45,496 nucleotides of DNA, taken from contig JAFAYP010000521.1 in assembly GCA_019240305.1 (NCBI GenBank), positions 64,818-110,313 of the forward strand. The letters run 5' to 3'. How positions within the stretch are numbered: the first letter of the stretch is position 1; each line of letters begins with the position of its first letter. The stretch comes from Solirubrobacterales bacterium (GTDB lineage: Bacteria > Actinomycetota > Thermoleophilia > Solirubrobacterales > Solirubrobacteraceae). The notes beneath the pieces are model-generated. The model was not told where the DNA came from and did no database searches. It was given only the letters and a program-made list of their open reading frames with translations. The position numbers were made by a program, and so were the translations under genes. Below are positions 80 through 39,870 of this stretch, piece after piece.

Positions 80-104
80 ACAAGTAAGAGTAGCACGTAT
101 GACG
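74..104. promoter_or_regulatory. Perfect 8-bp inverted repeat CGTCATAC-N15-GTATGACG in the divergent intergenic region; candidate operator
   Basis: Arms at 74-81 and 97-104 read directly; AT-richer spacer; lies at the start of the RHH-type gene. Confidence 0.4.
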
Positions 105-329
105 CACAACTGGAGCACAAGCGACGATCTGCCGGCCGGACGCGACCCGGCTGATCGAGCTGACGTGCGCGAAGATAGTCTGTGGCGGACCCGTTGGGCG
201 CTGGGAAATCCAGCGGCTATGGCCAAGGAGCCACGGCGTGAAAGCTTCGGCGACCACATCGAGATGTCGGAAGCAGGTTTCAGGGACGAACGTGGCCGAT
301 CTGCAGCGGATCGAGCTGAGTTCGGCCTC

Positions 330-365
330 GGCCCGCGTCCGCTTCGGGGCCCGCGTCCGCTTCGA
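330..365. repeat. 18-bp tandem repeat (ggcccgcgtccgcttcgg/a), two full copies plus a partial third
   Basis: Direct reading; encodes GPRPLRGPRPLRGPR in the putative leader of the amidohydrolase ORF. Confidence 0.7.
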
Positions 366-470
366 GGCCCGCGAGAACCTCAGACAGCCCCTGGGCCCCC
401 GTCACGGGGATGGCGGCTCAGCCGACGAGCGGGAGTGGTTCTGGCTGCGCCTGCCCGGGCTCGGACCAGC

Positions 471-1343
471 GTGAGCATCGACCTCGACCGCGTCGTCGCG
501 ATCGACGTCCACACGCACGCCGAGCGCAACGCCGGCGAACCTCAGGACGCGGTCACGACCGAGCTTCTCGAGGCGGCCGCCAGGTATTTCGGTGGCAGCC
601 CTCCCCAACCTACCGCTCAGGAAGTCGCCGACTACTACCGGGAGCGGAGCATGCTGGCCGTGGTGTTCACCGTCGATGACGAGGCCGGGATGGGACGCCG
701 GCGGATCGGCAACGACGAGGTGTTGCAGGCCGCGCGGGACAACCCGGATGTGCTGATCCCCTTCGGCAGCGTCGATCCGCACAAGGGCAAGCTCGGCGTC
801 CGGGAGGCTCAGGCACTCATTGAGGCCGGCGTCAGAGGTTTCAAGTTCCACCCGAACACGCAGGCCTTCTGGCCCAACGAGCGTGAACACTATCCGCTGT
901 ACGAGACAATCGCCGAAGCCGGCCTGATCGCCCTGTTCCACTCTGGGACAACCGGGATCGGCGCGGGGATGCCGGGGGGAGGGGGCGTACGCCTGAAGTA
1001 CTCAAACCCGATCTTCCTCGATGACGTCGCCGCCGATTTCCCGGGGCTGGACATCATCATCGCCCATCCCTCGTTTCCCTGGCAGGACGAGGCGCTGGCC
1101 ATCGCGGTCCACAAGCCGAACGTGTACATCGACCTCTCGGGATGGTCCCCGAAATACTTTCCGGACAACCTGATCCGCTACACCAACACCCTGCTGAAGG
1201 ACAAGATGCTGTTCGGCTCTGACTTCCCGTTGATCACGCCCGACCGCTGGCTGGCCGACTTCGAAACGCTGCCGATCAAGGACGAAGTCCGCCCACTGGT
1301 GCTCAAGCAGAACGCCGCCCGGCTGCTCCGGTTGCCATCCTGA
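471..1343 (+). CDS. Amidohydrolase family 2 (metal-dependent TIM-barrel hydrolase/decarboxylase)
   Basis: VVAIDVHTHAE, GVRGFKFHPNTQAF, LIALFHSGTTG, IIIAHPSFPWQDEAL, MLFGSDFPLITP. The track ORF begins at 99, but homology-like sequence starts at the GTG at 471. Confidence 0.8.
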   Translation: MSIDLDRVVAIDVHTHAERNAGEPQDAVTTELLEAAARYFGGSPPQPTAQEVADYYRERSMLAVVFTVDDEAGMGRRRIGNDEVLQAARDNPDVLIPFGSVDPHKGKLGVREAQALIEAGVRGFKFHPNTQAFWPNEREHYPLYETIAEAGLIALFHSGTTGIGAGMPGGGGVRLKYSNPIFLDDVAADFPGLDIIIAHPSFPWQDEALAIAVHKPNVYIDLSGWSPKYFPDNLIRYTNTLLKDKMLFGSDFPLITPDRWLADFETLPIKDEVRPLVLKQNAARLLRLPS

Positions 1344-17110: not shown

Positions 17111-17115
17111 GCGCG

Positions 17116-18153: not shown

Positions 18154-18157
18154 CGGG

Positions 18158-19138: not shown

Positions 19139-19159
19139 TGTGTGGTCGTCTCCTGGATG

Positions 19160-20200
19160 CTAGGCGTAGACGTGGTTGACGGCGTCTGCGGGCTCGGGGA
19201 ACGGGCTGTCGAGCCCATACCGCACCGCCGCCTGCATCTCGTCGCGTACCTGCGCGGCAATGGCGTCGGCGCGCTCGGCGTCGAGCTTGCCGTCGGTGAC
19301 CAGACGAGCGCGGAAGCGAGGCACTGGATCCCCGCGCTTGGCGGCCTCGTACTCCTCGGCGGCGCCGAAGACCTCGACCGCCTCGTGCTCGGGGAAGTGC
19401 AGCGGCACCCCGGGCGGCGCGATGATGTTTCCGTGGGCGGAGAGGCGATAGAGCTTTGATTCCACCAGCGTGGGTCCGTGGCCCTCGCGCGCGCGTGCGA
19501 CAGCGGCCCAGACAGCTTCGTAGACCGCGATCGGGTCGCCGCCGTCGACGGTCACGCCCGGCATCGAGAAGGCCTTGGCCTTGACCGCCAGCGGCTCGCC
19601 GGCGGCTGCGTTGGCATCCTCCTGCTCCACGCGCGTGATCACGTTGTAGGAGTTGTTCTCCATCACGTAGACGACCGGGAGCTTCCACAGCGACGCGATG
19701 TTCAGCGATTCCGAGAACGCTCCCTGCTTGGACGCTCCGTCGCCGAAGAAGCACAGGACGACCTGATCCCGCTTTCGGATCTGCGCAGCGTAGGCGACGC
19801 CGGTGGCCTGGGGAATCCCCTGGCCGACGATGCCCGACGTGCCCATGAAGCCGCGCTCTGGATCCACCAGGTGCATCGAGCCGCCGTAACCGCCGCACAG
19901 GCCACCCGTGCGGCCGTAGATCTCGGCCATCATCGCCCGGGGATCGGTGCCGAGCACGAGCGGATAGCCATGGCAGCGGTAGGTGCACATGAGCTGATCG
20001 TTTTCTCGCAACGTGGCCAGGGCACCGACGATCGACGCCTCCGCACCGTCGGCCAGGTGGGTGTGGCCGCGGATCACGCCCGGATGCTCCTCGAAGGTGC
20101 GCTTGACCCGCTCCTCGAACTCGCGGATTCGCAGCATCTGGGTGAAGGCCCAGATCAGGCGCTCGTCATCGAGCTCGGCCGGGTTGTTGCTCGTGCTCAC
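19160..20200 (-). CDS. 2-oxoacid dehydrogenase E1 component, alpha subunit (pair B, divergent loop)
   Basis: MLRIREFEERVKRTF; GGSMHLVDPERGFMGTSGIVGQGIPQATG; CFFGDGASKQGAFSESLNIASLWKLPVVYVMENNSYN; start GTG at 20200. Confidence 0.88.
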   Translation of the reverse strand: MSTSNNPAELDDERLIWAFTQMLRIREFEERVKRTFEEHPGVIRGHTHLADGAEASIVGALATLRENDQLMCTYRCHGYPLVLGTDPRAMMAEIYGRTGGLCGGYGGSMHLVDPERGFMGTSGIVGQGIPQATGVAYAAQIRKRDQVVLCFFGDGASKQGAFSESLNIASLWKLPVVYVMENNSYNVITRVEQEDANAAAGEPLAVKAKAFSMPGVTVDGGDPIAVYEAVWAAVARAREGHGPTLVESKLYRLSAHGNIIAPPGVPLHFPEHEAVEVFGAAEEYEAAKRGDPVPRFRARLVTDGKLDAERADAIAAQVRDEMQAAVRYGLDSPFPEPADAVNHVYA

Positions 20201-20213
20201 TTCCGCTCCCCTC

Positions 20214-21083
20214 TCACGCGATCCCACGCGCAAACTGTGCGGCGGTCGCCTCGTATGCTCGCTCGAACTCCTGGTCGATCGGCAGGCTGCGCAGGTTCGC
20301 CGACAGCACCTCCACACCCCACGGCTGGTCGTATCCGGCCTGCAGGCATGCGTCGACATAGGCGGGGATGTCGAACTCGCCCTCGCCCGGCAGGCGCCGG
20401 TGGTTGACCGTCTCGTCGATGAGGTCCTCCATGTTCTGGTGCTGGCCGTCGGACAGCTCGACCCAGGACAGGTGCTCCGGCGGAATCCGGCCCAGATCCT
20501 CCGGGGTGATCCCCAGCTTGGCCATGTGCCAGGTGTCGATGGCCAGGCCGCCATTCGGGCGGCCCGCGCCCTCCACCAGTTCCAGGGCGGCGTCGAGCGT
20601 GTTGACGTTCACGTCAAACGGCATGAATTCGTACACGACCGCCGCATCAGTGTGCTCGGCGGCATCGTCGCAAAGCGCCCCGAACTCCTCGATCAGCCGG
20701 CCGAGCTCGCACGGCGTTCCCGGGATGTTGCCGACCTTGATGTGGTGCGCGTCGAACGTCGCGGCGGTGTCGAACAGCAGCGCGCGCCGGCGGTCGGAGC
20801 CGGCTCGCTCGGGGCGATCCGGCTCGACGAAGAAGTCGGCCAGAAACTCGACCTGAAGATGGGTCAGGCCGGCGTCGTCGAAGACCCGCTTCATCTCGTG
20901 CAGCGTGCTGGTCTCGAGCTGGTGCTCGATGTCCGCGTGCCACAGCCCCAGGCCGCGGAAGCCGACACGCGCGGCCTGGGCGCAGCGATCGACCCACGTG
21001 AACGTGCTCCACTCGCGCCCGACGTGCACGTCCGCCGGACCCGCGCTCGTCCAGTACAGGTCGAGCAACTCGATCTCGCCCAT
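20214..21083 (-). CDS. Sugar phosphate isomerase/epimerase-like TIM-barrel protein
   Basis: Overall AP-endonuclease-2-like fold motifs: HHIKVGNIPGTP, VVYEFMPFDVNVNTLDAALELVEGAG, GLAIDTWHMAK, WVELSDGQ, GEGEFDIPAYVDACLQAGYDQPWGVEVLS. Confidence 0.8.
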   Translation of the reverse strand: MGEIELLDLYWTSAGPADVHVGREWSTFTWVDRCAQAARVGFRGLGLWHADIEHQLETSTLHEMKRVFDDAGLTHLQVEFLADFFVEPDRPERAGSDRRRALLFDTAATFDAHHIKVGNIPGTPCELGRLIEEFGALCDDAAEHTDAAVVYEFMPFDVNVNTLDAALELVEGAGRPNGGLAIDTWHMAKLGITPEDLGRIPPEHLSWVELSDGQHQNMEDLIDETVNHRRLPGEGEFDIPAYVDACLQAGYDQPWGVEVLSANLRSLPIDQEFERAYEATAAQFARGIA

Positions 21084-21173: not shown

Positions 21174-21914
21174 TCAGCGCGCCAGCTCGCCGGCGATCCG
21201 GTCCAGGGCCGTCACGAGCTCGTCGGTCCGTGACACCCAGGGCGAATGGTCGGTGTCGATCTCGATCACCGGATCACAGCCGGCGGCGCGATACATCCGC
21301 TGCTGCATCGCGGGCGGAATCGCACGGTCCTGGAGGCAGGTGACGTAGGCCCGGGGCAGCCTGGCGAACGCCTCGGGGTGATCGCCGGCGGCGAACGGCT
21401 GAGCGAACGCCGCCACGGGTTGAGGCCCGAGACGTTCGAGCCCCCACTCGACCTGCGCGTCGGTGGCGCAGCCCATGAGCGCCAGGGGTGCGGCCTCCCG
21501 CGGCATCCGGGCGATGGGCGGGTCGCCCATGACGACGATGTTGGCCTGGACCTGGTCATCGGCGGCCTCGGGGAGTGCCGTCAGGTCGAGCAGGCTCTGC
21601 CCGTCCTCGGGGATGAACGCCGCCACGTAGGCCAGCGCCGCGACCTGCTCGGGGCGGCGGGCGGCGGCCTGGGTGATCGCCATCCCGCCCATGCTGTGAC
21701 CGACCAGGAGCGCGGGGGGGCCTTCCCCGAGCGCCTCGCAGATCCGCTCCGCGTACGCCGTGAGCGTGACCTCGCCCAGCGGCGTCGGGTCCAGGCCGGC
21801 GCCGGGAAGGTCGATCGCCTCCACCTCGTGCCCGGCCGAGCGCAGGCCTGGCAGCACCGGCTCCCAGCACCAGGCGCCCGCGAACGCTCCATGTACCAGC
21901 AGGATTCTGGTCAC
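21174..21914 (-). CDS. Alpha/beta hydrolase (esterase/hydroxynitrile-lyase-type subfamily)
   Basis: ILLVHGAFAGAWCWEPVLPGLRSAGHEVEAIDLPGAG; nucleophile elbow GHSMGG; C-terminal DTDHSPW. Confidence 0.85.
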   Translation of the reverse strand: MTRILLVHGAFAGAWCWEPVLPGLRSAGHEVEAIDLPGAGLDPTPLGEVTLTAYAERICEALGEGPPALLVGHSMGGMAITQAAARRPEQVAALAYVAAFIPEDGQSLLDLTALPEAADDQVQANIVVMGDPPIARMPREAAPLALMGCATDAQVEWGLERLGPQPVAAFAQPFAAGDHPEAFARLPRAYVTCLQDRAIPPAMQQRMYRAAGCDPVIEIDTDHSPWVSRTDELVTALDRIAGELAR

Positions 21915-22000: not shown

Positions 22001-22030
22001 TTGACTTCCCCCGAAGCCTTCGCGTATAAG
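22001..22030 (+). promoter_or_regulatory. Candidate sigma70-type promoter TTGACT-N18-TATAAG for the 22085-31187 operon
   Basis: Direct reading; followed by SD-like AAGGGAGG at 22071-22078 and ATG at 22085. Confidence 0.6.
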
Positions 22031-22084: not shown

Positions 22085-23920
22085 ATGAGCACCACGGATC
22101 CTGCGCTCGGAGCGTTCCCGAGCCCGTACTCGGTGCCAACCCCGGCGGGGTGTGAGGGTTGGGAGGAGGGGTATCCGTACTACGCCGTGTTTGACGAGCG
22201 GCGGCGTGAAACCGACGAGAACCGCTTCTGGTTCTGGAACTCGATGCACTTCCCGGTCCCGATGCCGGCCTTCGACGTGATCTGCATCGATTCGCCGTAT
22301 CAGGCGGTGGGGTCGTGGCAGAACCGGGTGTTCGCCGTGCCGCCAGCGATGGGCATCGACTACCGAATCGTCAACGGCTACGTCTACATCTCGGGCAACC
22401 CGGTCACCGACCCGGAGAAGATCGCCGAACGAGCCGGCTTCTTCCAAGCGCGCGCCGGTCACTACTACGAGCACTGGACCGAGCTCTACGGCAAGTGGCG
22501 GGCGAAGATGGACGCTCTGATCGCCGAGCTGGGCGAGCTGCAGGTGCCCCACCTCCCCGAGTACGAGCCCGACGAGGTCGCCCTGGCCGACGACCGCAAC
22601 ACCGCGTTCTACGAGGTCCTCGACGCCTACGGGCGCTGCCTGCGGCTGCTCGATCTGATGTGGCAGCACCATTTCGAGTTCCTGCTCCTCGGCTACGGTG
22701 CCTACGCCACGTTCGTCGAGCTGTGCAAGAGCCATCTGCCCGACATTCCGGACCAGCACATCGCGCAGATGGTGGCGGGGATCGATGTGCTGCTGTTCAA
22801 GCCCGACGCCGAGCTGCGGCGGCTGGCCCGGCTGGCGATCGAGACGGGGGTCGACGGTGCCTTCGCGGAGGGCCGTACGCCTCAGGAGATCGACACCGAG
22901 CTCGCTCGCAGCGAAGCCGGGCGCAGCTGGCTGGCCGAGCTCGAGGAGGTCAAGGATCCGTGGTTCAACATGGCCACGGGAGACGGTCTGTACCACTACT
23001 ACCGCAGCTGGCTCGACGACCCGAGCATCCCGTATGCGGCCCTGATCGGACACATCGGTGCGCTCCGAGCGGGCCAGAAGATCGATCGGCCGACCGAGGA
23101 GATCGTGCGGGAGCGCGAGCGGCTGGCGGAGGGCTACGGCGCACTGCTCGATGAGGCGACGCGAGGCCCGTGGAATGACCTGCTGGCGCTGTCACGCACG
23201 GTGTTCCCCTATGTCGAGGAGCACAAGTTCTTCTGCGACTACTGGTTTCTGACCCGGTGGTGGAACAAGGTCCGCGAGTTCGGGGCGCTGCTGGCTGTGC
23301 ACGGGTTCATCGAGGACGGGGAGGACATCTTCCAGCTCTCCCGGCACGAGGTGGCCGTGGCACTGGACGAGCTGGTCCTCACCTGGGCCACCGGGGGCCG
23401 GCCGCTGGGCCCGCACCACTGGCCCGGAATCGTCGCCCGTCGCCGGGAGTTGCTCGAGCGGCTCGCGGCTTGGACGCCGCCGCCGGCGCTGGGCATCGCG
23501 CCGGAGGCGGTCACCGATCCGATGACGATCATGCTGTGGGGGGTGACCACCGAGCGAGTGCAGGACTGGGCCCGTCACCGGGACGGGGGCAACGAGCTGA
23601 ACGGGGCTGCGGCCTCACCCGGCGTGGTGGAAGGAGTCGCCCGGGTCGTCAGGTCGGTGACCGAGATCGCCGATGTACGCGACGGGGAGATACTCGTCTG
23701 CGGGAGCACGTCCCCGGCCTGGGCACCGATCTTCTCCAAGATCACCGCCACCGTCACCGACGTCGGCGGCGTGATGTCACATGCGGCGATCGTGTGCCGC
23801 GAATACGGGCTGCCCGCGGTCGTCGGCACCGGGCGCGCCACCTCGGAGATCCGCACCGGCCAGACGATCCGCGTCGACGGCTCAGGGGGGGTGGTGACAC
23901 TGCTCGACAGCGGTCGATGA
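22085..23920 (+). CDS. PEP-utilizing-enzyme mobile (phosphohistidine) domain protein; acceptor/His subunit of a split dikinase, phenylphosphate-synthase-like
   Basis: C-terminal TDVGGVMSHAAIVCREYGLPAVVGTGRATSEIRTGQTIRVDG; no PEP/pyruvate TIM-barrel after it; ~480-aa N-terminal region of unclear fold. Confidence 0.8.
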   Translation: MSTTDPALGAFPSPYSVPTPAGCEGWEEGYPYYAVFDERRRETDENRFWFWNSMHFPVPMPAFDVICIDSPYQAVGSWQNRVFAVPPAMGIDYRIVNGYVYISGNPVTDPEKIAERAGFFQARAGHYYEHWTELYGKWRAKMDALIAELGELQVPHLPEYEPDEVALADDRNTAFYEVLDAYGRCLRLLDLMWQHHFEFLLLGYGAYATFVELCKSHLPDIPDQHIAQMVAGIDVLLFKPDAELRRLARLAIETGVDGAFAEGRTPQEIDTELARSEAGRSWLAELEEVKDPWFNMATGDGLYHYYRSWLDDPSIPYAALIGHIGALRAGQKIDRPTEEIVRERERLAEGYGALLDEATRGPWNDLLALSRTVFPYVEEHKFFCDYWFLTRWWNKVREFGALLAVHGFIEDGEDIFQLSRHEVAVALDELVLTWATGGRPLGPHHWPGIVARRRELLERLAAWTPPPALGIAPEAVTDPMTIMLWGVTTERVQDWARHRDGGNELNGAAASPGVVEGVARVVRSVTEIADVRDGEILVCGSTSPAWAPIFSKITATVTDVGGVMSHAAIVCREYGLPAVVGTGRATSEIRTGQTIRVDGSGGVVTLLDSGR

Positions 23921-25008
23921 GCGCCGCCGCCGGCGGTCCCCACGGCCGGGCGCTGCACGGGCTGCGCCGTTCAGACGCGCCCGCGTTCGGGGGCAAGAGC
24001 ACCGGTCTCGGCGAGCTCCTCTCGGCGCAGATCCCGGTCCCACCGGGGTTCGCGCTCTCGACCACCGCCTTCGCCGCGTTCATGCGCGCATCAGACCTCG
24101 ATCACGTGGCTGACGAGGCGCTGGCGCCGGTCTTGACCGGGGACGTCGAGGCGACCCGGGAGGCATCACGCGAGATCGCCGCGGCCATGAGCTCGGCGCC
24201 GCTGCCGGGCGACGTCCGGGATGAACTCGCCGCGCGCTACGACGAGCTCGCCGCGAGCGCCGGGGTGCAGTCGCCGCCCGTGGCGGTACGTTCCAGCGCG
24301 GTGGGGGAGGACAGCGAGGACGCCACCTTCGCCGGCCAGCAGGAAACCCGCCTGTGGGTGCGCGGCGTCGAGGATGTCTGCGCGGCGGTGCGGGATTGCT
24401 GGACGAGCCTGTTCAGCCCGACGGCGATCAGCTACCGGGCCAGGCTGGGCGAGAGGTCACGGCCCGCCATGGGGGCCATCATCCAGCTGATGGTCGACGC
24501 CGCCGTCTCGGGCGTGATGTTCACCTGCAATCCGGTCAGCGGCGACCCGAGCATGGTCGCGATCAACGCCAGCTGGGGCCTCGGGCTGGCGGTGGTGGGC
24601 GGCGAGGTCACGCCGGACGATTACCTGGTGAGCAAGGTGACGGGTGAGATCGTCCGCGAGCAGCTGGGCGGCAAGCACGTGCAGTACGTCCCGAGCGTGG
24701 ACGGGCACGGAGCCGAGCTGGTGGAGGTTCCCGTGCCGCGGCGCGAGCTCGCATGCCTGGACGCCGAGATGCTGGCCGCGCTGATCGACCTCGGTCGCCG
24801 TGTCGAGCGCCACTTCGGCTCTCATCAGGACATCGAGTGGGCGATCGCCCGCGCCGGGGTGCCACCCGAGAACGTGTTCGTGGTCCAGTCGCGCCCGGTC
24901 ACCACGGTGCCCAGGCGGGTCAAGCCCACCGAGCCGCCGCCGTCGGCGCTCGCCCTGGTGATGGGCACCTTCGGCGCGGCCCAGACCCGGACCGAGGAGG
25001 AGCGGTAG
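23917..25008 (+). CDS. PEP synthase/PPDK N-terminal ATP-binding domain protein; ATP subunit of the split dikinase
   Basis: AFGGKSTGLGELLSAQIPVPPGFALSTTAF; VAVRSSAVGEDSEDATFAGQQET; GVMFTCNPVSGDPSMVAINASWGLG; DIEWAIARAG...VFVVQSRPVTT; ATGA overlap with the preceding gene. Confidence 0.88.
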   Translation: MSAAAGGPHGRALHGLRRSDAPAFGGKSTGLGELLSAQIPVPPGFALSTTAFAAFMRASDLDHVADEALAPVLTGDVEATREASREIAAAMSSAPLPGDVRDELAARYDELAASAGVQSPPVAVRSSAVGEDSEDATFAGQQETRLWVRGVEDVCAAVRDCWTSLFSPTAISYRARLGERSRPAMGAIIQLMVDAAVSGVMFTCNPVSGDPSMVAINASWGLGLAVVGGEVTPDDYLVSKVTGEIVREQLGGKHVQYVPSVDGHGAELVEVPVPRRELACLDAEMLAALIDLGRRVERHFGSHQDIEWAIARAGVPPENVFVVQSRPVTTVPRRVKPTEPPPSALALVMGTFGAAQTRTEEER

Positions 25009-25010
25009 GC

Positions 25011-25553
25011 GTGGGGCTGAGCCACGAGGATGTGCGCGAGATCCTGCGCATCATCGACGAGACACCGCTCGAGGAGCTGCGGATCGAGACCGACGGGTTC
25101 TCCCTGCACGTGCGAAAGGTCGGCGCCGCCGAGCCCGAGCCCGAGTCCGAGCTCGAGGTCGAGTCCGAGTCCGAGTCCGAGGCCGAGGTCGAGTCCGCGC
25201 CCTCGGCCGAGGCTGCGGCGCCGTCCGAGCGTGCCGCGAGAGCCGACCGCCCGCCGCCGGCGCCGCCCGCGCGGCCGGCCGAGGACCCCGAGGCTGACGA
25301 CGGGCTCGTGACCATCCCCTCGCCGATGCTCGGTACCTTCTACCGGGCCGAGTCCCCCGGCTCGCTGCCGTTCGTCGAGGTCGGAGCGCGGGTCGGACCC
25401 GAGACCACGGTCGGCATCATCGAGGTGATGAAGATGATGAACTCGGTTGCGGCCGGCGTGTCCGGAACCGTGGTCGAGGTGTGCTGTCAGAACGCCGCGC
25501 TGGTCGAGTACGGCGAGGCCCTGTTCAGGGTGCGCGCGGGTGAGGTGCAGTGA
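25011..25553 (+). CDS. accB: Biotin carboxyl carrier protein (BCCP)
   Basis: VTIPSPMLGTFYRAESPGSLPFVEVGARVGPETTVGIIEVMKMMNSVAAGVSG (biotinylation motif EVMKMMN); GTG start at 25011. Confidence 0.9.
   Translation: MGLSHEDVREILRIIDETPLEELRIETDGFSLHVRKVGAAEPEPESELEVESESESEAEVESAPSAEAAAPSERAARADRPPPAPPARPAEDPEADDGLVTIPSPMLGTFYRAESPGSLPFVEVGARVGPETTVGIIEVMKMMNSVAAGVSGTVVEVCCQNAALVEYGEALFRVRAGEVQ
25131..25196. repeat. Hexamer-like GAGNCC low-complexity run encoding an acidic Glu/Ser/Pro linker in BCCP
   Basis: gagcccgagcccgagtccgagctcgaggtcgagtccgagtccgagtcc...; protein EPEPESELEVESESESEAEVES. Confidence 0.8.
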
Positions 25554-26884
25554 AGCGCGTGTTCATCCCGAACCGGGGGGAGATCGCGGTGCGGATCGTT
25601 CGCGCCTGCCGTGAGCTCGACCTCGAGTGCGTCGTCGGCGCCTCCGAACCGGACCTCGACGGCCTGGCGGCGCGGCAGGCGGACCGGGTCGTGTGCCTTG
25701 GCCCCGGTCCTGCGGACGCGAGCTACCTGCGTGACGATATCGTCGTCCAGGCCGCGCTCGGCACCGGCTGTGACGCGATCCACCCCGGATACGGGTTCCT
25801 GTCCGAGAGCCCGCAGTTGGCGGCCCGCGCCCGCGAGCACGGCCTCGTGTTCGTCGGACCTCCGACCGAGGCGATCTCCCTCGCCGGGGACAAGCTGGCC
25901 GCGCGTGAGGAGGCGCGGGGCGCGGGGGTGCCGGTGCTCCCGGGTGGCGAGGCGCGGAGCGCTGAGCAGGCCCGAGAGCTCGCAGACCGGATTGGCTATC
26001 CCGTTCTGGTCAAGGCCGCCGGCGGGGGCGGGGGCCGCGGCATCAAGCGGGCGGCCGACGGCCAGGAGCTCGAGGCGGTGATCGGTCTGGCCCGCGGCGA
26101 AGCGGCGGCGGCGTTCGCCGACGACCGCGTGTACGTCGAGCGGTTGATCGAGTCCGCGCGTCACGTCGAGGTCCAGATCGCCGCGGACGATCATGACACG
26201 GTGATCGATCTGGGCGAGCGCGACTGTTCGGTGCAGCGCCGCTTCCAGAAGGTGATCGAGGAGGCTCCGGCCCCCGCGCTGTCCGAGGCGACACGAGGGC
26301 GGCTGCGGGAGGCGGCGGTGGCGTTTGCGCGGGCGATCGGCTACCGCAACCTGGGCACGGCCGAGTTCGTGGTCGACGCCGACAGCGGTGAGTTCTTCTT
26401 TCTCGAGGTCAACTGCCGGATCCAGGTCGAGCATCCGGTGACCGAGGCCGTCACCGGGAGAGACCTCGTCGGCCTTCAGCTGCGGATCGCCGCTGGTGAG
26501 CGGCTCGGCTTCGCGCAGGAAGACGTCGCCTTCGCCGGCCACGCGGTCGAATGCCGGCTCAATGCCGAGGACATCGCCCGGGGCTTCATGCCCTCGCCGG
26601 GCACGCTGTCGCTGTTCGCGATGCCGGGGCGCCCGGGGCTGCGGGTGGACACCCACTGCTTCGCGGGCGCGGCCGTCCCGCCCTACTACGACTCGCTGCT
26701 GGCCAAGCTGATTGCCCACGGTGATGACCGCGTTCAGGCAATCGATCTACTGCTCGACGCCCTCGAGGACGTGGACGTCGAGGGGGTGCAGACAAACCGC
26801 GCGCTCCTTCAGAGCGTGCTCGGTCTCCCCGACTTCCGCGCCGCCGCGGTGACCACCGACTGGCTCGAGCGCACGCTGCAATGA
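25550..26884 (+). CDS. accC: Biotin carboxylase
   Basis: KRVFIPNRGEIAVRIVRACREL; IHPGYGFLSE; KAAGGGGGRGIK; EVNCRIQVEHPVTE. Confidence 0.94.
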   Translation: MKRVFIPNRGEIAVRIVRACRELDLECVVGASEPDLDGLAARQADRVVCLGPGPADASYLRDDIVVQAALGTGCDAIHPGYGFLSESPQLAARAREHGLVFVGPPTEAISLAGDKLAAREEARGAGVPVLPGGEARSAEQARELADRIGYPVLVKAAGGGGGRGIKRAADGQELEAVIGLARGEAAAAFADDRVYVERLIESARHVEVQIAADDHDTVIDLGERDCSVQRRFQKVIEEAPAPALSEATRGRLREAAVAFARAIGYRNLGTAEFVVDADSGEFFFLEVNCRIQVEHPVTEAVTGRDLVGLQLRIAAGERLGFAQEDVAFAGHAVECRLNAEDIARGFMPSPGTLSLFAMPGRPGLRVDTHCFAGAAVPPYYDSLLAKLIAHGDDRVQAIDLLLDALEDVDVEGVQTNRALLQSVLGLPDFRAAAVTTDWLERTLQ

Positions 26885-28359
26885 GCACCCGGATCGAGTT
26901 CGTCGACACGACCATGCGGGACGGGAACCAGTGCATGTGGAGCGCGACCGGGCTGACCACGCCCGATGTGCTGGCCATCGCCCCCACGCTGAACCGGGTC
27001 GCCTACCACGCGCTCGACTTCACCTCGAGCACGCACATGGCGGTCTCGGTGCGCTTTCACCGCGAGGATCCCTGGGAGCGGATCCGGCTCGTGAGCGCCG
27101 CGATGCCCGATACGCCATTGGGGATCATCACCACCGGAATGCGGTTCATCTCCTGGGTCCCCGCCGAGGAGGAGGTGATGCGGCTCTCGTTTGCGCTCGT
27201 GGTCCGCAACGGAATCCGCCGCTTCCAGATCGCCGACCCGTCCAACGACCCAGCACGGATCAAGCGGCTGGCCGCGATGGCGCGGGCCGAGGGTGCCGAA
27301 GAGGTCGTCGTGGGGCTCACCTACTCGATCAGCGAGGTGCACACCCATCAGTACTACGCGGATCGCGCCACCGCTCTGGCCGACTGCGCCGACATGGATC
27401 GGCTGTACCTGAAGGATCCCGGCGGTCTGCTGACGCCCGACGCAGTACGTGAGCTCGCTCCGGCCCTGCTCGTCGCGGCCGGCGAGCGTCCGGTCGAGCT
27501 GCACAGCCACTGCACCATAGGCCTGGCGCCGCTGGTCTACATGGAGGGACTCAGGGCGGGCCTGCGCGTGCTGCACACGGCATCGGGTGCCCTGGCCCGG
27601 GGCACCTCGCAACCTGACGTGCTCAACACGGCGCGGAATGTCGAGGCGTCCGGATACGGACACGCGCTCGACCTCGACCAGCAGGCGATCGTCTCGGCGC
27701 ACTTCGACGAGCTCGCCCGCGCCAAGGGGCTTCCCAGCGGTGCCGCACAGGAGTTCGACGCCGCCTACTACCGCCACCAGCTGCCCGGCGGCATGGTCAC
27801 GACGACGCGGCGGATGCTCGAAGAGCTCCGCCGGCCCGAGCTGTTCGAGGCGGTGCTTGAGGAGGTGACACAGGTGCGGGCCGAGATGGGCTACCCGATC
27901 ATCGTCACCCCCGTCTCGCAGTTCATCGCCAGTCAGGCCGCTCGCAACGTGATCGACGGTGAGCGGTGGCACAACGTCTCGGATGAGACGGTGCGCTACT
28001 TCCTCGGTCACTACGGTGCCGCGCCCGCCCCGGTCGACCCCGAGATCGCCGACCGCGTCCTCTCGCGCCCGCAGGTCCGCGGTCTGGCCGATCTGAAGCC
28101 GCTCAGTCTCGACGGAGCGCGCGAGCGCTTCGGGGCCCGGATCTCCGAGGAGGAGCTGCTGCTGCGTCTGACGATGCCTGCGGAGCAGGTCGACGCGATG
28201 GTCGCGGCGCGCGACGGCGCCGCGGGACCACCGCTCCCGGCCGCGCGACCGGGGCGTTCGCCGGTGGTCAGCCTGCTGCAGGAGCTCGAGCGCCGCCCGT
28301 CGCTGACCAGGGTCGCGATCGCTGCGGGTGGCGATCGGGTGGTCTGGCGCCGTGCTTGA
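26881..28359 (+). CDS. Pyruvate carboxylase subunit B/transcarboxylase 5S-type carboxyltransferase, divergent substrate site
   Basis: FVDTTMRDGNQ; REDPWERIR; YLKDPGGLLTPDAV; ELHSHCTIGLAP; LPGGMVTTTRRML; YPIIVTPVSQFIASQAARNV. Confidence 0.88.
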   Translation: MSTRIEFVDTTMRDGNQCMWSATGLTTPDVLAIAPTLNRVAYHALDFTSSTHMAVSVRFHREDPWERIRLVSAAMPDTPLGIITTGMRFISWVPAEEEVMRLSFALVVRNGIRRFQIADPSNDPARIKRLAAMARAEGAEEVVVGLTYSISEVHTHQYYADRATALADCADMDRLYLKDPGGLLTPDAVRELAPALLVAAGERPVELHSHCTIGLAPLVYMEGLRAGLRVLHTASGALARGTSQPDVLNTARNVEASGYGHALDLDQQAIVSAHFDELARAKGLPSGAAQEFDAAYYRHQLPGGMVTTTRRMLEELRRPELFEAVLEEVTQVRAEMGYPIIVTPVSQFIASQAARNVIDGERWHNVSDETVRYFLGHYGAAPAPVDPEIADRVLSRPQVRGLADLKPLSLDGARERFGARISEEELLLRLTMPAEQVDAMVAARDGAAGPPLPAARPGRSPVVSLLQELERRPSLTRVAIAAGGDRVVWRRA

Positions 28360-29167
28360 CGGCGTGCGACTCGATGCTGTCCGCGGCTTCGTGTTCGATG
28401 TCGACGGAACGCTGCTTCACCGTGGCCCCGACGGCCGCGGCCGGCCGCAGCCCGGCGCCGTCGACGTGCTCGAGGCGATTCGAGCCAGCGGACGGCGGCT
28501 GGTGCTGTTCACCAACGCCAGCCACGTCCCCTCGGCGGCCATCGCGCGCGGTCTGCGTGAGGACGGCTTGCCGGTCTCGGGCGAGGAGCTGTTGACGCCG
28601 GTCGACAGTGCCACCGCCTTTCTGCGTCGATACCACGCTGACCGTCCGGCGCTGCTGTTCGCCTCGGGCTCGGTACGCGAGCACATGGCCCAGGCGGGGA
28701 TCCGCATCGCCGAGGGGGAGGAGGCCGGGGTGGTCTTCGTGGCTCATCTGGAGGAGGTGGAGATGGGGGAGCTGGAGCGCGCGGCGCGCGCAGTCACGAG
28801 GGGGGCGCCGCTGTTCACCGGCAGCTACGTGCGGGGCTACGCCGGCGCCAACGGCATCATCTACAGCCGCGGCGCGATGATCACGGCGGCGATCGCCAAG
28901 GTCACCGGCGCGCGCCCCCGGGTGCTCGGCAAGCCGTCGCGCGCGGCCGTGACCGAGCTCGGCGCTCGCCTCGGCGTCCCCACGCGCGAGGTCGCGGTGA
29001 TCGGCGACGATCTGGGCATGGACATCGCGCTGGGCCGGATGGGTGGCTGCAGGACCGTGCTCGTCCGCAGCGGGATCAGCGGCGCGATCGACCTCGAGAC
29101 GGTGCCCGAGCGCCGGCGGCCAGACGCCGTGATCGATGGCGTCGCGGACCTGCTCGAGCGGCTCTAG
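28352..29167 (+). CDS. HAD-superfamily (IIA/NagD-like) phosphatase
   Basis: GFVFDVDGTLLHRG; VLFTNASH; RVLGKPSRAAVTELGARLG; VAVIGDDLGMDIALGRMGGCRTVLVRSG; GTG at 28352 overlaps the upstream stop. Confidence 0.88.
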   Translation: MLDGVRLDAVRGFVFDVDGTLLHRGPDGRGRPQPGAVDVLEAIRASGRRLVLFTNASHVPSAAIARGLREDGLPVSGEELLTPVDSATAFLRRYHADRPALLFASGSVREHMAQAGIRIAEGEEAGVVFVAHLEEVEMGELERAARAVTRGAPLFTGSYVRGYAGANGIIYSRGAMITAAIAKVTGARPRVLGKPSRAAVTELGARLGVPTREVAVIGDDLGMDIALGRMGGCRTVLVRSGISGAIDLETVPERRRPDAVIDGVADLLERL

Positions 29168-29213
29168 CTTTCACGATGGCCGAGGGCAAGCGTTGCACCG
29201 AGGAGCTCGTTGA

Positions 29214-31187
29214 GTGATCGGGGACGTTCTCTGGACACCTCCCGGGGATGTGCGGCAGAGGACCGAGATCGGGCGGTTCATGAATTGGCTGCGCGATCAC
29301 CGCGGCCGTGACTTCGCCTCCTATGACGAGCTCTGGCGGTGGTCGGTCGATGACCTCGAGGGCTTCTGGGGATCGATCTGGGCCTTCTACGCGATCCGGG
29401 CTCGACGGCCCTACGAGCGCGTACTGGGTGCGAGCGCGATGCCGGGCGCCGAGTGGTTCCCGGGGGCGCGCCTCAACTACGCCGAGCATCTCGTCGGCCT
29501 GGACGAGGACCGCGACCGGACCGCGGTCCTGTCGCGGTCACAGACTCGGCCGCCGCTTGACCTGACGTTCGGCGAGCTGCGCGAGCTGGCCGCCCGGGCG
29601 AGAGTCGGATTGCAACGACTCGGCGTCGGCCCCGGTGACCGGGTCGTCGCCTACCTGCCCAACATTCCCGAAACGCTCGCGGCGTTCATCGCCACCGCCA
29701 GCCTCGGGGCGATCTGGGCCGCCTGCGCGCCCGAGTTCGGCGCGCGGAGCGTCGTCGATCGCTTCGCCCAGATCCAACCGCGGGTCATGCTGGCCGTGGG
29801 CGGCTACGGGTTCCGAGATCGCTATGTCGATCGCCGCGAGGACGTGGTGGCGATCCGGTCCCGGCTGCCGACCCTCGAGCACGTCGTCTGGGTGCCCTAC
29901 GGTGACGCCGTGGTGCCCGACGCCACCAGCTGGGACGACCTGCTGGCCGAGTCCGCGGCGCTTCAGTTCGAGCCGGTCGCGTTCGACCAGCCGCTGTACG
30001 TGCTGTTCTCATCCGGGAGCACCGGTCTGCCCAAGGCGATCGTCCACGGGCATGGCGGCCAGCTGATCGAGCACCACAAGAACCAGGGGCTCGGCTGGGA
30101 CCTGAAACCCGGCGGTCGCCTGCAGTGGTTCTCCACGACAGCCTGGATGATGTGGAACGCACTGGTCTCGGCGCTCCTGCTCCGCGCTTCGATCGTGATG
30201 CTTGACGGCGATCCCGCCTGGCCGGATCTGCTCGAGCAGTGGCGGCTGGCGGAACGCAACCGCCCGACGGTGATGGGCGTGGCGCCGCCGTATCTGATGG
30301 CGTGTCGGAAGGCCGGCCTCGAGCCGGGGCGCGAATGCGATCTGGGCTCGATCCGCGCTCTGTGCACGGCGGGCTCACCGCTACCGGCCGAGGGCTATAC
30401 CTACGTGTACGAGCAGCTCGCTCGCGATGTGGTGCTGATCAACGGGTCGGGCGGCACGGACGTGTGCACCGGGATCGTGTCCGGGTCGTTCGCCCAGCCG
30501 GTGTACGAGGGAGAGATCTCCGGTCCCTGCCTGGGGGTCGCCGCGCATGCCTTTGACCTCTCGGGAGCCGAGATCGTGGGCGAGCTGGGCGAGCTGGTGA
30601 TCACCAAGCCGATGCCCTCGATGCCGGTCGCGCTCTGGAACGATCCTGACGGCCAACGCTACCGCTCGTCGTATTTCGATCGCTACCCGGGCGTCTGGCG
30701 TCAAGGGGACTGGGTCAGGTTCACCGAGCGCGGCAGCTGCGTGCTGACCGGGCGCTCCGACGCCACGCTCAACCGCGGCGGCGTACGCCTGGGGACCGGC
30801 GAGTTCTACGCCACGGTCGAGGAGCTCCCGGAGATCACCGACGCGCTCGTCGTGCACCTCGAGGATGCCGGCGGCGGGCCGGGCGAGCTGCTGCTGTTCG
30901 TCGTCGCCGCCCCCGAAGCCGCCGTCGACGCGGCCGTGCACGAGCGAATCGCCGCGGCGCTCCGGCGCGAGCTCTCGCCGCGCCACGTTCCGGACGCGAT
31001 CGTCACGGTGCCCTCGATTCCGCGGACCCTCACGGGCAAGAAGCTCGAGGCGCCGGTCAAGCGGATCCTGTTGGGAGAGCCGGCCGATACGGTGGCCAGC
31101 CGTGACTCACTCGCCAACCCGGCCGCGCTTGACGCGTTCGTCGAGCTGGCGAGCGAGCGCTCGGCGCGCCAGGCTTCACTACCATAG
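29214..31187 (+). CDS. Acetoacetate-CoA ligase (acetoacetyl-CoA synthetase)
   Basis: FYAIRARRPYERVLGASAMPGAEWFPGARLNYAEHLV; LFSSGSTGLPKAIVHGHGGQLIEHHKNQGLGWDLKPGGRLQWFSTTAWMMWNALVSALL; SDATLNRGGVRLGTGEFY. Confidence 0.9.
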   Translation: MIGDVLWTPPGDVRQRTEIGRFMNWLRDHRGRDFASYDELWRWSVDDLEGFWGSIWAFYAIRARRPYERVLGASAMPGAEWFPGARLNYAEHLVGLDEDRDRTAVLSRSQTRPPLDLTFGELRELAARARVGLQRLGVGPGDRVVAYLPNIPETLAAFIATASLGAIWAACAPEFGARSVVDRFAQIQPRVMLAVGGYGFRDRYVDRREDVVAIRSRLPTLEHVVWVPYGDAVVPDATSWDDLLAESAALQFEPVAFDQPLYVLFSSGSTGLPKAIVHGHGGQLIEHHKNQGLGWDLKPGGRLQWFSTTAWMMWNALVSALLLRASIVMLDGDPAWPDLLEQWRLAERNRPTVMGVAPPYLMACRKAGLEPGRECDLGSIRALCTAGSPLPAEGYTYVYEQLARDVVLINGSGGTDVCTGIVSGSFAQPVYEGEISGPCLGVAAHAFDLSGAEIVGELGELVITKPMPSMPVALWNDPDGQRYRSSYFDRYPGVWRQGDWVRFTERGSCVLTGRSDATLNRGGVRLGTGEFYATVEELPEITDALVVHLEDAGGGPGELLLFVVAAPEAAVDAAVHERIAAALRRELSPRHVPDAIVTVPSIPRTLTGKKLEAPVKRILLGEPADTVASRDSLANPAALDAFVELASERSARQASLP

Positions 31188-31239
31188 GCACTAACCGAGC
31201 TCGGGCGGATGTGCCCGGTTGGGGGAGAGGGATCGACGG

Positions 31240-32268
31240 ATGGCTGTAGCCGAGGCGAGGTTTACCGGGCCGACGAGATGGCGGCAGCCAGAGCCGGAGT
31301 ATTGGCGAGTCCGCGACGGCGACGCGTCCGCGCGGCTGCGCTCCTGGGCCGAGATCCTCGCCACGACCCACTTGGCGTTCGACGTGCACCCGACGTTCCG
31401 AACCCCGACGAGGTTCCAGGGAGCAGTCACGCGCCGCGCGATCGGCGATCTGATGCTCGTCGACTGTGCCGCCTCGCCATTTCTCGGCCACCGTAGCCGC
31501 GCCGTGATGGACGGCCGACGTGAGGCCAGCCCCCGTGAGAACGTGCTCGGCCTCCAATTCGTGTGCAAGGGCGTCGAGCGTGTCCGCGAGGGCAACCGCG
31601 AGCTGACGCTGACGGCGGGCGACGTCGTTCTCTGGGACGGGATGCAGCCGACCGAGGTCGAGATCGTCGAGGCGTTCTACAAGCGCACGTTGCTGTTCCC
31701 GCGCGATCAGGTCGTAGCGCTGTGCCCGCGACTGGCCGATGTGAGCGCGCTGCCGTCGCTGGACGGAAGCGCCCCGGCCCGCCTCCTCGTTCGGTACATG
31801 AATGCGCTTGCGCTCGAGCTGCCGCAGCTCGAGCCCACGGCCGCCACCGCGGCGGCCAACGCCGCGTTCGAGCTGTTGCGAGCGGCGATCGAGCCCAATC
31901 TGCCCACCGACCGCTCGGCCATGCGCGCCGCGCTGCGGACCGAGATCGGCCGCTACGTGCGCACCCATCTGCAGGACCCGACGCTCGGGCCGGCCTCGAT
32001 CGCTCAGGCGAACGCGATGTCGGTCCGCGCGCTGCACGCGCTGTTCGAGGACGTCGACGCGTCGGTGGCTGCGCTCGTGCGCTCCGAGCGACTGGCCCGC
32101 TGCCTGGAGGACCTGCAGCGGCGCAACGGCGGGTCGGTGACCGAGATCGCGTTCCGCTGGGGATTCTGCGACGCCGCCCACTTCTCACGCGTATTCAAGC
32201 GCGAGTTCGGCGCCACGCCCAGCGAAGTCCGGCAGGCCGCCCTAGCCGCCGGCTCAGCCCGCGACTGA
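31240..32268 (+). CDS. AraC-family transcriptional regulator (AraC-binding-like-domain type)
   Basis: C-terminal HTH SVRALHALFEDVDASVAALVRSERLARCLEDLQRRNGGSVTEIAFRWGFCDAAHFSRVFKREFGATPSEVR. Confidence 0.92.
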   Translation: MAVAEARFTGPTRWRQPEPEYWRVRDGDASARLRSWAEILATTHLAFDVHPTFRTPTRFQGAVTRRAIGDLMLVDCAASPFLGHRSRAVMDGRREASPRENVLGLQFVCKGVERVREGNRELTLTAGDVVLWDGMQPTEVEIVEAFYKRTLLFPRDQVVALCPRLADVSALPSLDGSAPARLLVRYMNALALELPQLEPTAATAAANAAFELLRAAIEPNLPTDRSAMRAALRTEIGRYVRTHLQDPTLGPASIAQANAMSVRALHALFEDVDASVAALVRSERLARCLEDLQRRNGGSVTEIAFRWGFCDAAHFSRVFKREFGATPSEVRQAALAAGSARD

Positions 32269-33570
32269 GCGTCGGTCGAGCACCCGGACCGCTTTGCCCT
32301 CGCTGCGCGGCAGGCTCCCGGGATCGAGCACCGTCACCGCGATCCGCAAGCCGGTGTGCTCTTTCAGCTGCGCCTCGATCCGCTGGCGCAGGGGCTCGTG
32401 ATCATTGCCGCCGGCTGGCTCGCATTCGAGCGTGAGCTCGTCCATGGGACCCACCCGCTCGACGATCAGGCGGTAGTGCGGGGCCACGCCATCGACACCG
32501 AGCAGCGCGTGCTCGACCTGGGACGGATAGAGGTTCACCCCGCGCACGATCAGCATGTCGTCCCGGCGGCCGCGCAGGCCGGTGAGGCGGGCGGTCGTGC
32601 GCCCGCACCGGCACGGCGACTCGATCACGCCGCCGATGTCGCCGGTGCGGTAGCGGATCAGCGGCAGCGCCTCCTTGGTCAGCGTGGTGAACACGAGCTC
32701 GCCTTCCTCGCCGGGAGCCACCGCGCGACCGTCGTCGGGATTCACCACCTCGACCAGGAAGTGATCCTCCTGGACGTGCAACCCGGCGCGCGCGGCGAGG
32801 CACTCGCTGGCGACGCCGGGGCCACACATCTCCGATAGGCCGTAGAAGCTGATCGCCGCGATCCCCAGCGTTCGCTCGATCTGGACGCGCATGGCTTCGG
32901 TCCAGGCCTCGCCACCGAACAGGCCGAGCTGGAGCGGTAGTTGCGCCGGGTCGATTCCGGCCTCCTCGAGCGCCTGGGCGATGACCAGGGAATACGAGGG
33001 CGTGGAGACCAGCACCTCGGCCCCCAGGTCCTGGAGCAGCATGATCTGACGAGCGGTGCGCCCGCCGGATACTGGGACCACCGTCGCGCCGATCCGCTCG
33101 CCGCCCTGATGAAACCCCAGTCCGCCGGTGAACAGCCCATAGCCATTGGCGTTGTGGATCGTCATCCCAGGTTGGACCCCGGCCATCGTCATGCCGCGGG
33201 CCATCAGGTCGGTCCAGCGGTCGAGATCGCCACGGGTGTACGCCACCACGGTCGGCTTGCCATGCGTCCCGCTGGAGGCATGGACACGGACGAGCTCGTC
33301 GCGCGCGACCGCGAGCAGCCCGAACGGATATGAGGCCCGCAGGTCGGATTTGGTCATGAATGCGATCTGCTCGAGGTCGGCGAGCGAATGCAGATCGTCG
33401 GGGGCCGCGATCCCGGCCGAGGCCAGGCGCTCGGCGCCCAGCGCCTGGCCCCGCAGCACCCGCTCGACGGTGGTGCGCAACCGTTCCAGTTGGAGCCCGC
33501 GCAACTCCGCCCGTGGCAGCGTCTCGGCGGGGTCCCAGATCAGGGGTTCACTCGGCGCGCCGGGCGGCAT
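32254..33570 (-). CDS. paaK: Phenylacetate-CoA ligase (PaaK-like)
   Basis: FMTKSDLRASYPFGLLAVARDELVRVHASSGTHGKPTVVAYTRGDLDRWTDLMAR; YGLSEMCGPGVASEC; RYRTGDIGGVIESPCRCGRTTARLTGLRGRRDDMLIVRGVNLYPSQVEHALL. Confidence 0.9.
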   Translation of the reverse strand: MPPGAPSEPLIWDPAETLPRAELRGLQLERLRTTVERVLRGQALGAERLASAGIAAPDDLHSLADLEQIAFMTKSDLRASYPFGLLAVARDELVRVHASSGTHGKPTVVAYTRGDLDRWTDLMARGMTMAGVQPGMTIHNANGYGLFTGGLGFHQGGERIGATVVPVSGGRTARQIMLLQDLGAEVLVSTPSYSLVIAQALEEAGIDPAQLPLQLGLFGGEAWTEAMRVQIERTLGIAAISFYGLSEMCGPGVASECLAARAGLHVQEDHFLVEVVNPDDGRAVAPGEEGELVFTTLTKEALPLIRYRTGDIGGVIESPCRCGRTTARLTGLRGRRDDMLIVRGVNLYPSQVEHALLGVDGVAPHYRLIVERVGPMDELTLECEPAGGNDHEPLRQRIEAQLKEHTGLRIAVTVLDPGSLPRSEGKAVRVLDRRSVAG

Positions 33571-34927
33571 CCCAGTGCTGCTCGAGATTGCGGACGAGGG
33601 CCGGGCTGAGATGGCAGTAGGCCTGCTCGTGGGCGTAGGTCGCCATGTAGCGGCGGAACAGTTCCAGCGGCTCCTGCCCGACGCGCAGCGCCCGCCGGTT
33701 GGCCGCTGCGTTGACCAGGCCGGAGCTGGTCAGCTCCTCTACGCGTGAGGCGATCGCCGCGTCCATGTCGCCCGGCTCGGTCACCTCGTCGATGAGCAGG
33801 TCGGCGTCGGCCTCGCCGGCCGTCCACTCGCGGCCGGAGAGAATCGCCTGGCGCGCGGCGCGATCACCGACCGCGCGCGGGAGCCGGAGATTCGAAGCGC
33901 CGGGGATGATCCCCTCCCTTCGCGCCGGAAGGTAGAGCCGCGAGCCGCGCGTGGCGATGACGTGGTCGACGACGTGCAGCAGCTGGCACCCGCCGCCGAT
34001 CGCATAGCGCTCGACGGCGGCGATCCATAGCTTCTCCACCGGACCGTCCTGCGTGATCAGGCCACGGTAGATCTTGCTCACGTAGCCCAGGTCACGGACG
34101 AGGTAGAACAGGAAGTCGATCCGCCCCCGGTAGAGGTGGGTGAGGTTGATCCCCGATCCGAAAACCCGCTCGCCGGCGTACCGGGGGTGTTCGACGACGG
34201 CGCCGCGGAACACGCCGACCTCGGTCTCAGGGTCGAGCACGACCAGGTCGACCGCCGACTCCGTGGGCGCAAGCGTCGCTCCGTCCTCGGCGTTCAGGTG
34301 CCGTGGGTTGCGCAGCTCGAGCACGGCCGCCCGTCCCTGGCGGGTGACCCGCGCGGCGCCGAAGTCCCCGACGCCGGAGGCGAGGTAGCGAGGCAGCATC
34401 TCCAGTGCCTCGGGCGTCGGAGCGAGCATCGATTCGATCAGGTGCCGGCCGGCGCGCGGCAGCGCCAGCACCTGCTCGACGAGCAGGCCCTGAGCCAGCT
34501 CGAGGCCACGCTTGTCAGACAGGGGCAGCCTGCGCTCGGCCTCCATCTCGGCTGGGCTTGGGACCAGCCCGGGGACCAGCCCGGCCGCCTCGTCGAGGAG
34601 CCGCTCCAGTCGGATCGGCCGAGAGCAGCCCGCGGTGAGCCGGTCATAGAGCTCGGCGGCGTGAGCATCGAGAAAAGCGACGCGTGCGGCGGCCAGCGCC
34701 GCCCCCAGGGCTCCGGCCGCGGCCTGCTCGACATCCGAGCGGCCAGCGGCCGCGGGCAAGCGTTCGTCGAGCGCCGCACCACGGGCCAGGAAGCCCGACA
34801 GCGCCTGAGCCGCGGCCTCGAATGACTCGAGGCTCGGGGGGGTGGACAGCGACCAGTCGCGGATCTTCCCGGGCGACAGCCCGGCTTGCTCCAGCACCTC
34901 GGTGGTGAGCTCAGTGACCGAGCGCAT
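33548..34927 (-). CDS. dpgC: DpgC-like cofactor-independent (3,5-dihydroxyphenyl)acetyl-CoA 1,2-dioxygenase, crotonase fold
   Basis: LPLSDKRGLELAQGLLVEQVL; HPRYAGERVFGSGINLTHLYRGRIDFLFYLVRDLGYVSKIYRG; AVERYAIGGGCQLLHVVDHVIA; LPARREGIIPGASNLRLPRAVGDRAARQAIL; RALRVGQEPLELFRRYMATYAHEQAYCHLSPALVRNLEQHWDA, recalled as strongly DpgC-like. Confidence 0.78.
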   Translation of the reverse strand: MRSVTELTTEVLEQAGLSPGKIRDWSLSTPPSLESFEAAAQALSGFLARGAALDERLPAAAGRSDVEQAAAGALGAALAAARVAFLDAHAAELYDRLTAGCSRPIRLERLLDEAAGLVPGLVPSPAEMEAERRLPLSDKRGLELAQGLLVEQVLALPRAGRHLIESMLAPTPEALEMLPRYLASGVGDFGAARVTRQGRAAVLELRNPRHLNAEDGATLAPTESAVDLVVLDPETEVGVFRGAVVEHPRYAGERVFGSGINLTHLYRGRIDFLFYLVRDLGYVSKIYRGLITQDGPVEKLWIAAVERYAIGGGCQLLHVVDHVIATRGSRLYLPARREGIIPGASNLRLPRAVGDRAARQAILSGREWTAGEADADLLIDEVTEPGDMDAAIASRVEELTSSGLVNAAANRRALRVGQEPLELFRRYMATYAHEQAYCHLSPALVRNLEQHWDAARRAE

Positions 34928-37591: not shown

Positions 37592-37815
37592 CCCACGCAA
37601 CGATAGTCAATTCACCCGTGTCTCGGGCACGAGCCCGGAGGTACGCGACCGAGCGCACGCCGGTTGAGGCGTCGGCCGGCGCCGTCGAAGAGCTCGTCGG
37701 GGAAGCCGTCGAGCGGTGCGACACGCCGACCGCAGCTTCGGCGGACGATCTGTGGTTCGTCCTCTCATCGTTGTGGGCATGTATCCAGGCGGAGGCACGA
37801 CGAAAAGAGGAACGA

Positions 37816-39867: not shown

Positions 39868-39870
39868 GCC

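Follow-up and report, generated by a model that had tools for sequence, protein, structure and literature searches.

What reaction sequence is encoded by seven co-directional genes in which a split dikinase precedes a three-subunit biotin-dependent carboxylase, a HAD phosphatase and an acetoacetate-CoA ligase? The genes occupy positions 22085-31187 of a 45,496-nucleotide stretch of DNA (the window; contig JAFAYP010000521.1 of assembly GCA_019240305.1) from a Solirubrobacterales bacterium, whose source genome is a 73% complete metagenome-assembled genome (MAG). A first-pass annotation had proposed a ketone-carboxylation operon of a kind not yet described. The operon is confirmed as genuine and complete, yet of an already described kind: as judged from its genes, it is very probably a complete Hpe (hydroxyphenylethanone) catabolic operon, with hpeHI, genes for the biotin carboxyl carrier protein (BCCP), biotin carboxylase and carboxyltransferase, hpeD and hpeE, and with an hpeF homologue some 21 kb upstream. 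For every step, the function in the window is predicted from homology, synteny and context.

All seven reading frames are intact, lie on the + strand and follow the order first given for them (Table 1). Successive genes are spaced by -4, +2, -4, -4, -32 and +46 bases, so that three junctions overlap by 4 bases, one overlaps by more and two leave a short gap. The catalytic motifs, too, are intact: TDVGGVMSH with phospho-His 566 in the H subunit, EVMKM with the biotin Lys in BCCP, GGGGRG, the LKD/HSH metal and carboxy-Lys site, and DVDGT. The first protein is 611 aa long, and not 612 as initially counted. The promoter remarked on in the first-pass annotation gains support, since the TTGACT-N18-TATAAG element recurs at the orthologous place upstream of hpeH in loci L107, L002 and L004, though a consensus promoter scan returned no qualifying site and did not call it. 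A gene for an AraC/FeaR-type protein starts 31 bases after the ligase gene, which it also adjoins in loci L106, L147 and L148; this protein likely regulates the operon.

A composition thought to be undescribed was in fact published in 2022 (PNAS) as the Hpe pathway, hpeHICBADEF, of Rhodococcus rhodochrous GD02 (PMC9618137, PMC12167813); no such system was found in the acetone-carboxylase literature, and the acetovanillone literature had it. In GD02, HpeHI transfers phosphate to the phenol hydroxyl of acetovanillone and 4-hydroxyacetophenone with formation of AMP, HpeCBA accepts for carboxylation only the ketones so phosphorylated and spends one ATP (to ADP) on each, and HpeD removes the phosphate, which is kept until carboxylation is done; the kinase, carboxylase and phosphatase steps were shown biochemically, and HpeE and HpeF are the proposed makers and splitters of the CoA ester (PMC9618137). 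Attempts to make the GD02 carboxylase in E. coli failed (PMC9618137). The operon on a plasmid of Rhodococcus JS3073 serves here as a proxy for that of GD02 because its HpeI is 97.5% identical to 9GOJ, the crystallised GD02 HpeI (PMC12167813); it is through HpeI alone that JS3073 is tied to the characterised protein. The JS3073 order is H-I-BCCP-biotin carboxylase-carboxyltransferase-HAD-ligase-HpeF, and that of the window is the same except for HpeF.

Assignment to the Hpe type follows from the agreement of three independent tests: the kinase tree, the carboxyltransferase active site and the genome context. In the tree, a 31-row clade with support 99/97 holds the window kinase, Rhodococcus HpeH, and the operon kinases of Rhizobium, Terriglobia (Acidobacteriota) and Pseudomonadota. 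It excludes the phenol-type PpsA and cresol-type CreH proteins, PpsA-type rows being those whose gene lies beside phenylphosphate carboxylase genes (L031) and CreH-type rows those beside P450 genes (L034/L035). Rhodococcus HpeH has a long end branch, and the window kinase is 46% identical to the PpsA-type protein of Azoarcus KH32C and 42-43% identical to CreH-type proteins of Rhodococcus plasmids. The ATP-grasp (I) subunit has 9goj_A as its best PDB match (E 1.6e-76).

The H subunit scores 900 bits against NCBIfam PRK08296.1-5 (cut-off 578), with PF00391 at residues 532-602, and a domain search did not find the phosphoenolpyruvate-binding C-terminal domain in it. Its AlphaFold model (mean predicted local distance difference test score 76) is matched best by rifampin phosphotransferase in Foldseek, over about 490 columns, whereas the match to pyruvate phosphate dikinase is limited to the swivel domain, about 115 residues; published HpeH gave the same outcome (PMC12167813). 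With no pyruvate-binding domain predicted in H, phosphorylation of pyruvate by this dikinase appears unlikely. Kinase clade, domains and the known pathway thus bear out the proposal that a split dikinase resembling phenylphosphate synthase, with an acceptor other than pyruvate, works together with a biotin carboxylase.

In pyruvate carboxylase, a conserved Arg binds the carboxylate of pyruvate. Alignment of carboxyltransferases shows that the window enzyme retains the metal Asp/His/His and the Lys, whereas the Trp, Arg, Asn and Tyr of every pyruvate-type enzyme aligned are replaced by Thr, Thr, Arg and Trp in both the window and the JS3073 enzymes. These two have in common a TTGMRFISW motif, with Thr in place of the pyruvate Arg, that is absent from pyruvate-type enzymes; no operon-type carboxyltransferase has kept the Arg, which all pyruvate-type ones retain. 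Pyruvate carboxylase and oxaloacetate decarboxylase were rejected on the four replacements. More broadly, matches of the subunits to acetyl-CoA carboxylase and pyruvate carboxylase models might suggest a pyruvate- or acyl-CoA-carboxylase operon beside an unrelated dikinase, but this is extremely improbable given the loss of the Arg and the linkage of the kinase genes in several phyla, and subunits of the PYC_OADA type do not act as acyl-CoA carboxyltransferases. The biotin carboxylase is 46-51% identical to its Rhodococcus and Rhizobium orthologues. In JS3073 (L030 15250-18451) the masses are 48.3 kDa for the biotin carboxylase and 57.5 kDa for the carboxyltransferase; in the GD02 paper HpeA is 57.4 kDa and HpeB 49.3 kDa, yet HpeA is named the biotin carboxylase, and the HpeA and HpeB labels in Table 1 of that paper may be swapped (PMC9618137).

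The ligase exceeds the cut-offs of the acetoacetate-CoA ligase models (744 against 521 for TIGR01217, 849 against 639 for PRK03584), which would fit the mechanism first suggested, in which the dikinase forms an enol phosphate of acetone or butanone, carboxybiotin converts it to acetoacetate and the ligase activates the product. However, the closest characterised homologue of HpeE itself is an acetoacetyl-CoA synthetase-type protein, acsA2 (PMC9618137), so that the family name does not imply acetoacetate. By tree and Foldseek the kinase is a phenolic two-component dikinase, and the neighbours of the operon in relatives belong to aromatic catabolism. We therefore regard that mechanism as very unlikely for the window, and aliphatic ketones and enol phosphates as an unlikely substrate and intermediate. 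The described pathway phosphorylates the phenolic hydroxyl of an aryl methyl ketone in place of forming an enol phosphate, and it shares with the first-pass annotation a beta-keto acid made by the biotin enzyme and then ligated to CoA (PMC9618137). Acetone and butanone found no support as substrates. Ligases at the same position in Rhodococcus and Rhizobium are 41-43% identical to that of the window.

An HpeF homologue at the start of the window shares 54-55% identity with the protein at the HpeF position in JS3073, 62% with its Rhizobium counterpart and 64% with one of Rubrobacter taiwanensis (L014 6078-6914), and with it the full Hpe set lies in the window. In a complete Rubrobacteraceae genome (G011), one stretch holds pobA, a LigM-type vanillate O-demethylase (633, cut-off 580), FolD and formate-tetrahydrofolate ligase, the operon, and beyond it pcaD, pcaB, pcaGH and pcaF; the R. 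taiwanensis operon is flanked by pcaD and hpeF and, on its other side, by an O-demethylase gene. The enzymes encoded around the operon in these genomes consume the Hpe products vanillate and 4-hydroxybenzoate, and the context in these two genomes points to acetovanillone or 4-hydroxyacetophenone as the substrate. The window's own genome encodes PcaH and a DesA-type syringate O-demethylase, both above cut-offs.

Several observations weigh against assignment to the Hpe type: (i) the hpeF homologue lies outside the operon; (ii) a Thermomicrobium kinase without a full operon sits within the HpeH clade, and one operon kinase of genome G464 falls outside it; (iii) pobA in the window's own genome is a mere fragment at a contig start of the incomplete MAG; and (iv) the window proteins are only 34-55% identical to those of Rhodococcus, so that the preferred substrate could differ. 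This last point would also suit the same chemistry on another phenolic ketone, either a longer one (propiovanillone, hydroxypropiovanillone) or a plant hydroxyacetophenone, as would the presence of two operon copies in the genome and of modules in relatives that encode H, carboxyltransferase and phosphatase, which suggest several substrates. Against it, both the hpeF homologue and the O-demethylase and pca genes of the context are consistent with an acetyl side chain and with vanillate or 4-hydroxybenzoate as products; we consider such a substrate possible, though on balance unlikely.

For an Hpe operon acting on a lignin-derived 4-hydroxyphenyl methyl ketone (candidates are acetovanillone, 4-hydroxyacetophenone and acetosyringone), HI would phosphorylate the ring hydroxyl through a swivelling phosphohistidine, converting ATP to AMP and Pi. 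The biotin enzyme, using bicarbonate and ATP (to ADP), would then carboxylate the phospho-ketone at the methyl of its acetyl group, and the HAD phosphatase would remove the phosphate. The ligase would form an aryl-beta-ketopropionyl-CoA, which the HpeF-like hydrolase would split into an aromatic acid and acetyl-CoA, the acid presumably entering the protocatechuate and beta-ketoadipate pathway.

The window system resembles Hpe of GD02 in its seven enzymes, gene order (via JS3073), kinase clade, carboxyltransferase active-site motif and possession of an hpeF homologue. It differs in the unlinked hpeF, the AraC/FeaR-type regulator downstream, the PaaK-like and DpgC-like neighbours and the two operon copies in the genome. 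The Acv pathway of Sphingobium lignivorans SYK-6, for acetovanillone and acetosyringone, has by its description a similar split kinase, three-part biotin carboxylase and phosphatase, encoded in a six-gene operon with the last two steps encoded elsewhere (PMC13101465). XccBCA of Aromatoleum aromaticum EbN1, a homologous carboxylase clustered with hpeHI homologues, serves 4-hydroxyacetophenone catabolism in what is described as an anaerobic pathway (PMC9618137). Phenylphosphate synthase/carboxylase (PpsAB/Ppc) also has a homologous split dikinase acting on a phenol, but Ppc is UbiD-type and carboxylates the ring, and its kinase forms a separate clade; we rejected this candidate because the window carboxylase is of the biotin type, with no UbiD-type gene beside the kinase, in contrast to L031. 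The 4-cresol kinase CreHI is a homologous split dikinase as well, of a separate clade, in a pathway with P450 oxidation in place of carboxylation; the Cre pathway was rejected since the operon has no P450, ferredoxin, reductase or HD phosphohydrolase gene. Acetone and acetophenone carboxylases (Acx, Apc) likewise carboxylate ketones to beta-keto acids at the expense of ATP, and have hydantoinase-type subunits, no biotin and no separate kinase; the operon subunits are of the biotin-enzyme type and not hydantoinase A/B.

Co-occurrence across genomes, which the first-pass annotation had made its own refuting test, held, the set being shared across phyla in the same order. Among relatives of the first protein, all seven genes occur together in Solirubrobacterales, R. 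taiwanensis and another Rubrobacteraceae member, and the first six in one Pseudomonadota and one Terriglobia MAG; the full seven, together with the HpeF-position amidohydrolase, are also encoded on plasmids of Rhizobium leguminosarum BT01 and Rhodococcus JS3073. Recurrence in Rubrobacter, Rhodococcus, Rhizobium, Pseudomonadota and Acidobacteriota argues against chance. An Hpe-type carboxyltransferase (at least 47% identity) is present in 17 of the 232 genomes of the window's order and in 7 of 397 in an even phylum sample, five of these seven belonging to a single family, recognised as Rubrobacteraceae by a contig in common; the weaker matches, at 28-40% identity, differ in their active-site residues and are pyruvate-type enzymes or others. 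The second operon of the window's own genome (contig C365, L096) has the order H-I-C-A-B-D, after which come a DpgC-like and a PaaK-like gene. Some relatives have variants lacking BCCP and biotin carboxylase, arranged H-I-carboxyltransferase-phosphatase or H-carboxyltransferase-phosphatase, and the genomes with the latter (L009, L019) also carry a fuller operon.

Beyond the regulator gene, the window has a PaaK-like and a DpgC-like gene, 74% and 71% identical to the pair of C365; the DpgC-like then PaaK-like genes directly follow the phosphatase gene in C365, G503 and G509. Perhaps there is an oxygen-dependent Hpe branch in the genus, in which the DpgC-like protein (of the cofactor-free oxygenase type) and the PaaK-like protein would oxidise the product or a related arylacetate as its CoA ester in place of HpeF hydrolysis, and perhaps the H-carboxyltransferase-phosphatase modules are substrate-specific cassettes borrowing shared ATP-grasp and biotin subunits; we think this rather doubtful. 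Directly after the HpeF-like gene (1343-3016) is a benzoylformate-decarboxylase-like thiamine pyrophosphate enzyme (480 bits, cut-off 493), which with the PaaK-like and DpgC-like genes could form a route from arylacetate through arylglyoxylate to benzaldehyde. On the other side of hpeH, the alpha/beta hydrolase gene is a conserved neighbour within the genus, with a 55-68% identical orthologue in the same place in L003, L005, L006, L007, L018 and L096. Upstream (16088-20554) are two tandem 2-oxo-acid dehydrogenase-type E1 alpha/beta gene pairs, and one E1 gene, next to the TIM-barrel and alpha/beta hydrolase genes, has a syntenic counterpart in G507 (L106). A hydantoinase A/B-type pair at 37618-41856 forms a separate locus; its nearest models are those of the caprolactamase CapAB, with scores well short of the cut-offs. 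In G464, a similar HyuA gene comes after the second hpe-like operon (L103 12314-14341).

Table 1. Features of the probable hpe locus in the window, and related loci in other contigs and genomes
Feature	Position	Strand	Basis or remark
HpeF-like beta-ketoacyl-CoA hydrolase	99..1343 (homologous part 462-1334)	+	Amidohydro_2
Alpha/beta hydrolase, divergent from hpeH	21174..21914	-	Abhydrolase_6
Promoter-like TTGACT-N18-TATAAG	22001..22030	+	sequence; upstream of hpeH
HpeH-like dikinase subunit, 611 aa	22085..23920	+	RPH-type acceptor domain and phosphohistidine swivel domain (His566)
HpeI-like ATP-grasp subunit, 363 aa	23917..25008	+	PF01326 4e-92
HpeC-like BCCP, 180 aa	25011..25553	+	TIGR00531 above cut-off; EVMKM biotinylation motif
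Biotin carboxylase subunit, 444 aa	25550..26884	+	Biotin_carb_N/CPSase/Biotin_carb_C
Carboxyltransferase, phosphophenylethanone-carboxylase type, 492 aa	26881..28359	+	PYC_OADA
HpeD-like HAD-IIA phosphatase, 279 aa	28328..29167	+	Hydrolase_6/Hydrolase_like; same position in all full operons
HpeE-like acyl-CoA ligase, acetoacetate-CoA ligase family, 657 aa	29214..31187	+	
AraC/FeaR-type regulator	31219..32268	+	HTH_18, AraC_binding_2; FeaR model 147 bits, below cut-off
PaaK-like aryl-CoA ligase	32254..33570	-	TIGR02155 511 bits, below cut-off 646
DpgC-like crotonase-fold protein	33548..34927	-	NF042432 397 bits, below cut-off 530
PaaK/DpgC-like pair near hpe operon in the genus	L096 7513-9907; L147 3645-6051; L148 2287-4827; L151 6619-8245		
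Operons without BCCP and biotin carboxylase	L013 5643-10642; L102 8308-13666		
Operons with only H, carboxyltransferase and phosphatase	L009 10001-14113; L019 7547-11659		
pobA-demethylase-C1-folate-hpe-pca stretch of G011	L143 and L144, G011:C1 ~830-852 kb		

Earlier surveys reported complete syntenous hpe clusters in just four further genomes, one of them outside Rhodococcus (PMC9618137), and clustering of kinase and carboxylase in 52 of 836 cases (PMC13101465). What is new here is the occurrence in 17 of the 232 genomes of the window's taxonomic order, the variants without BCCP and biotin carboxylase, and the recurrent DpgC-like/PaaK-like pair. The present survey alters the reported rarity of hpe clusters, and the operons of Solirubrobacterales and Rubrobacteraceae offer new sources of enzymes for converting lignin ketones.

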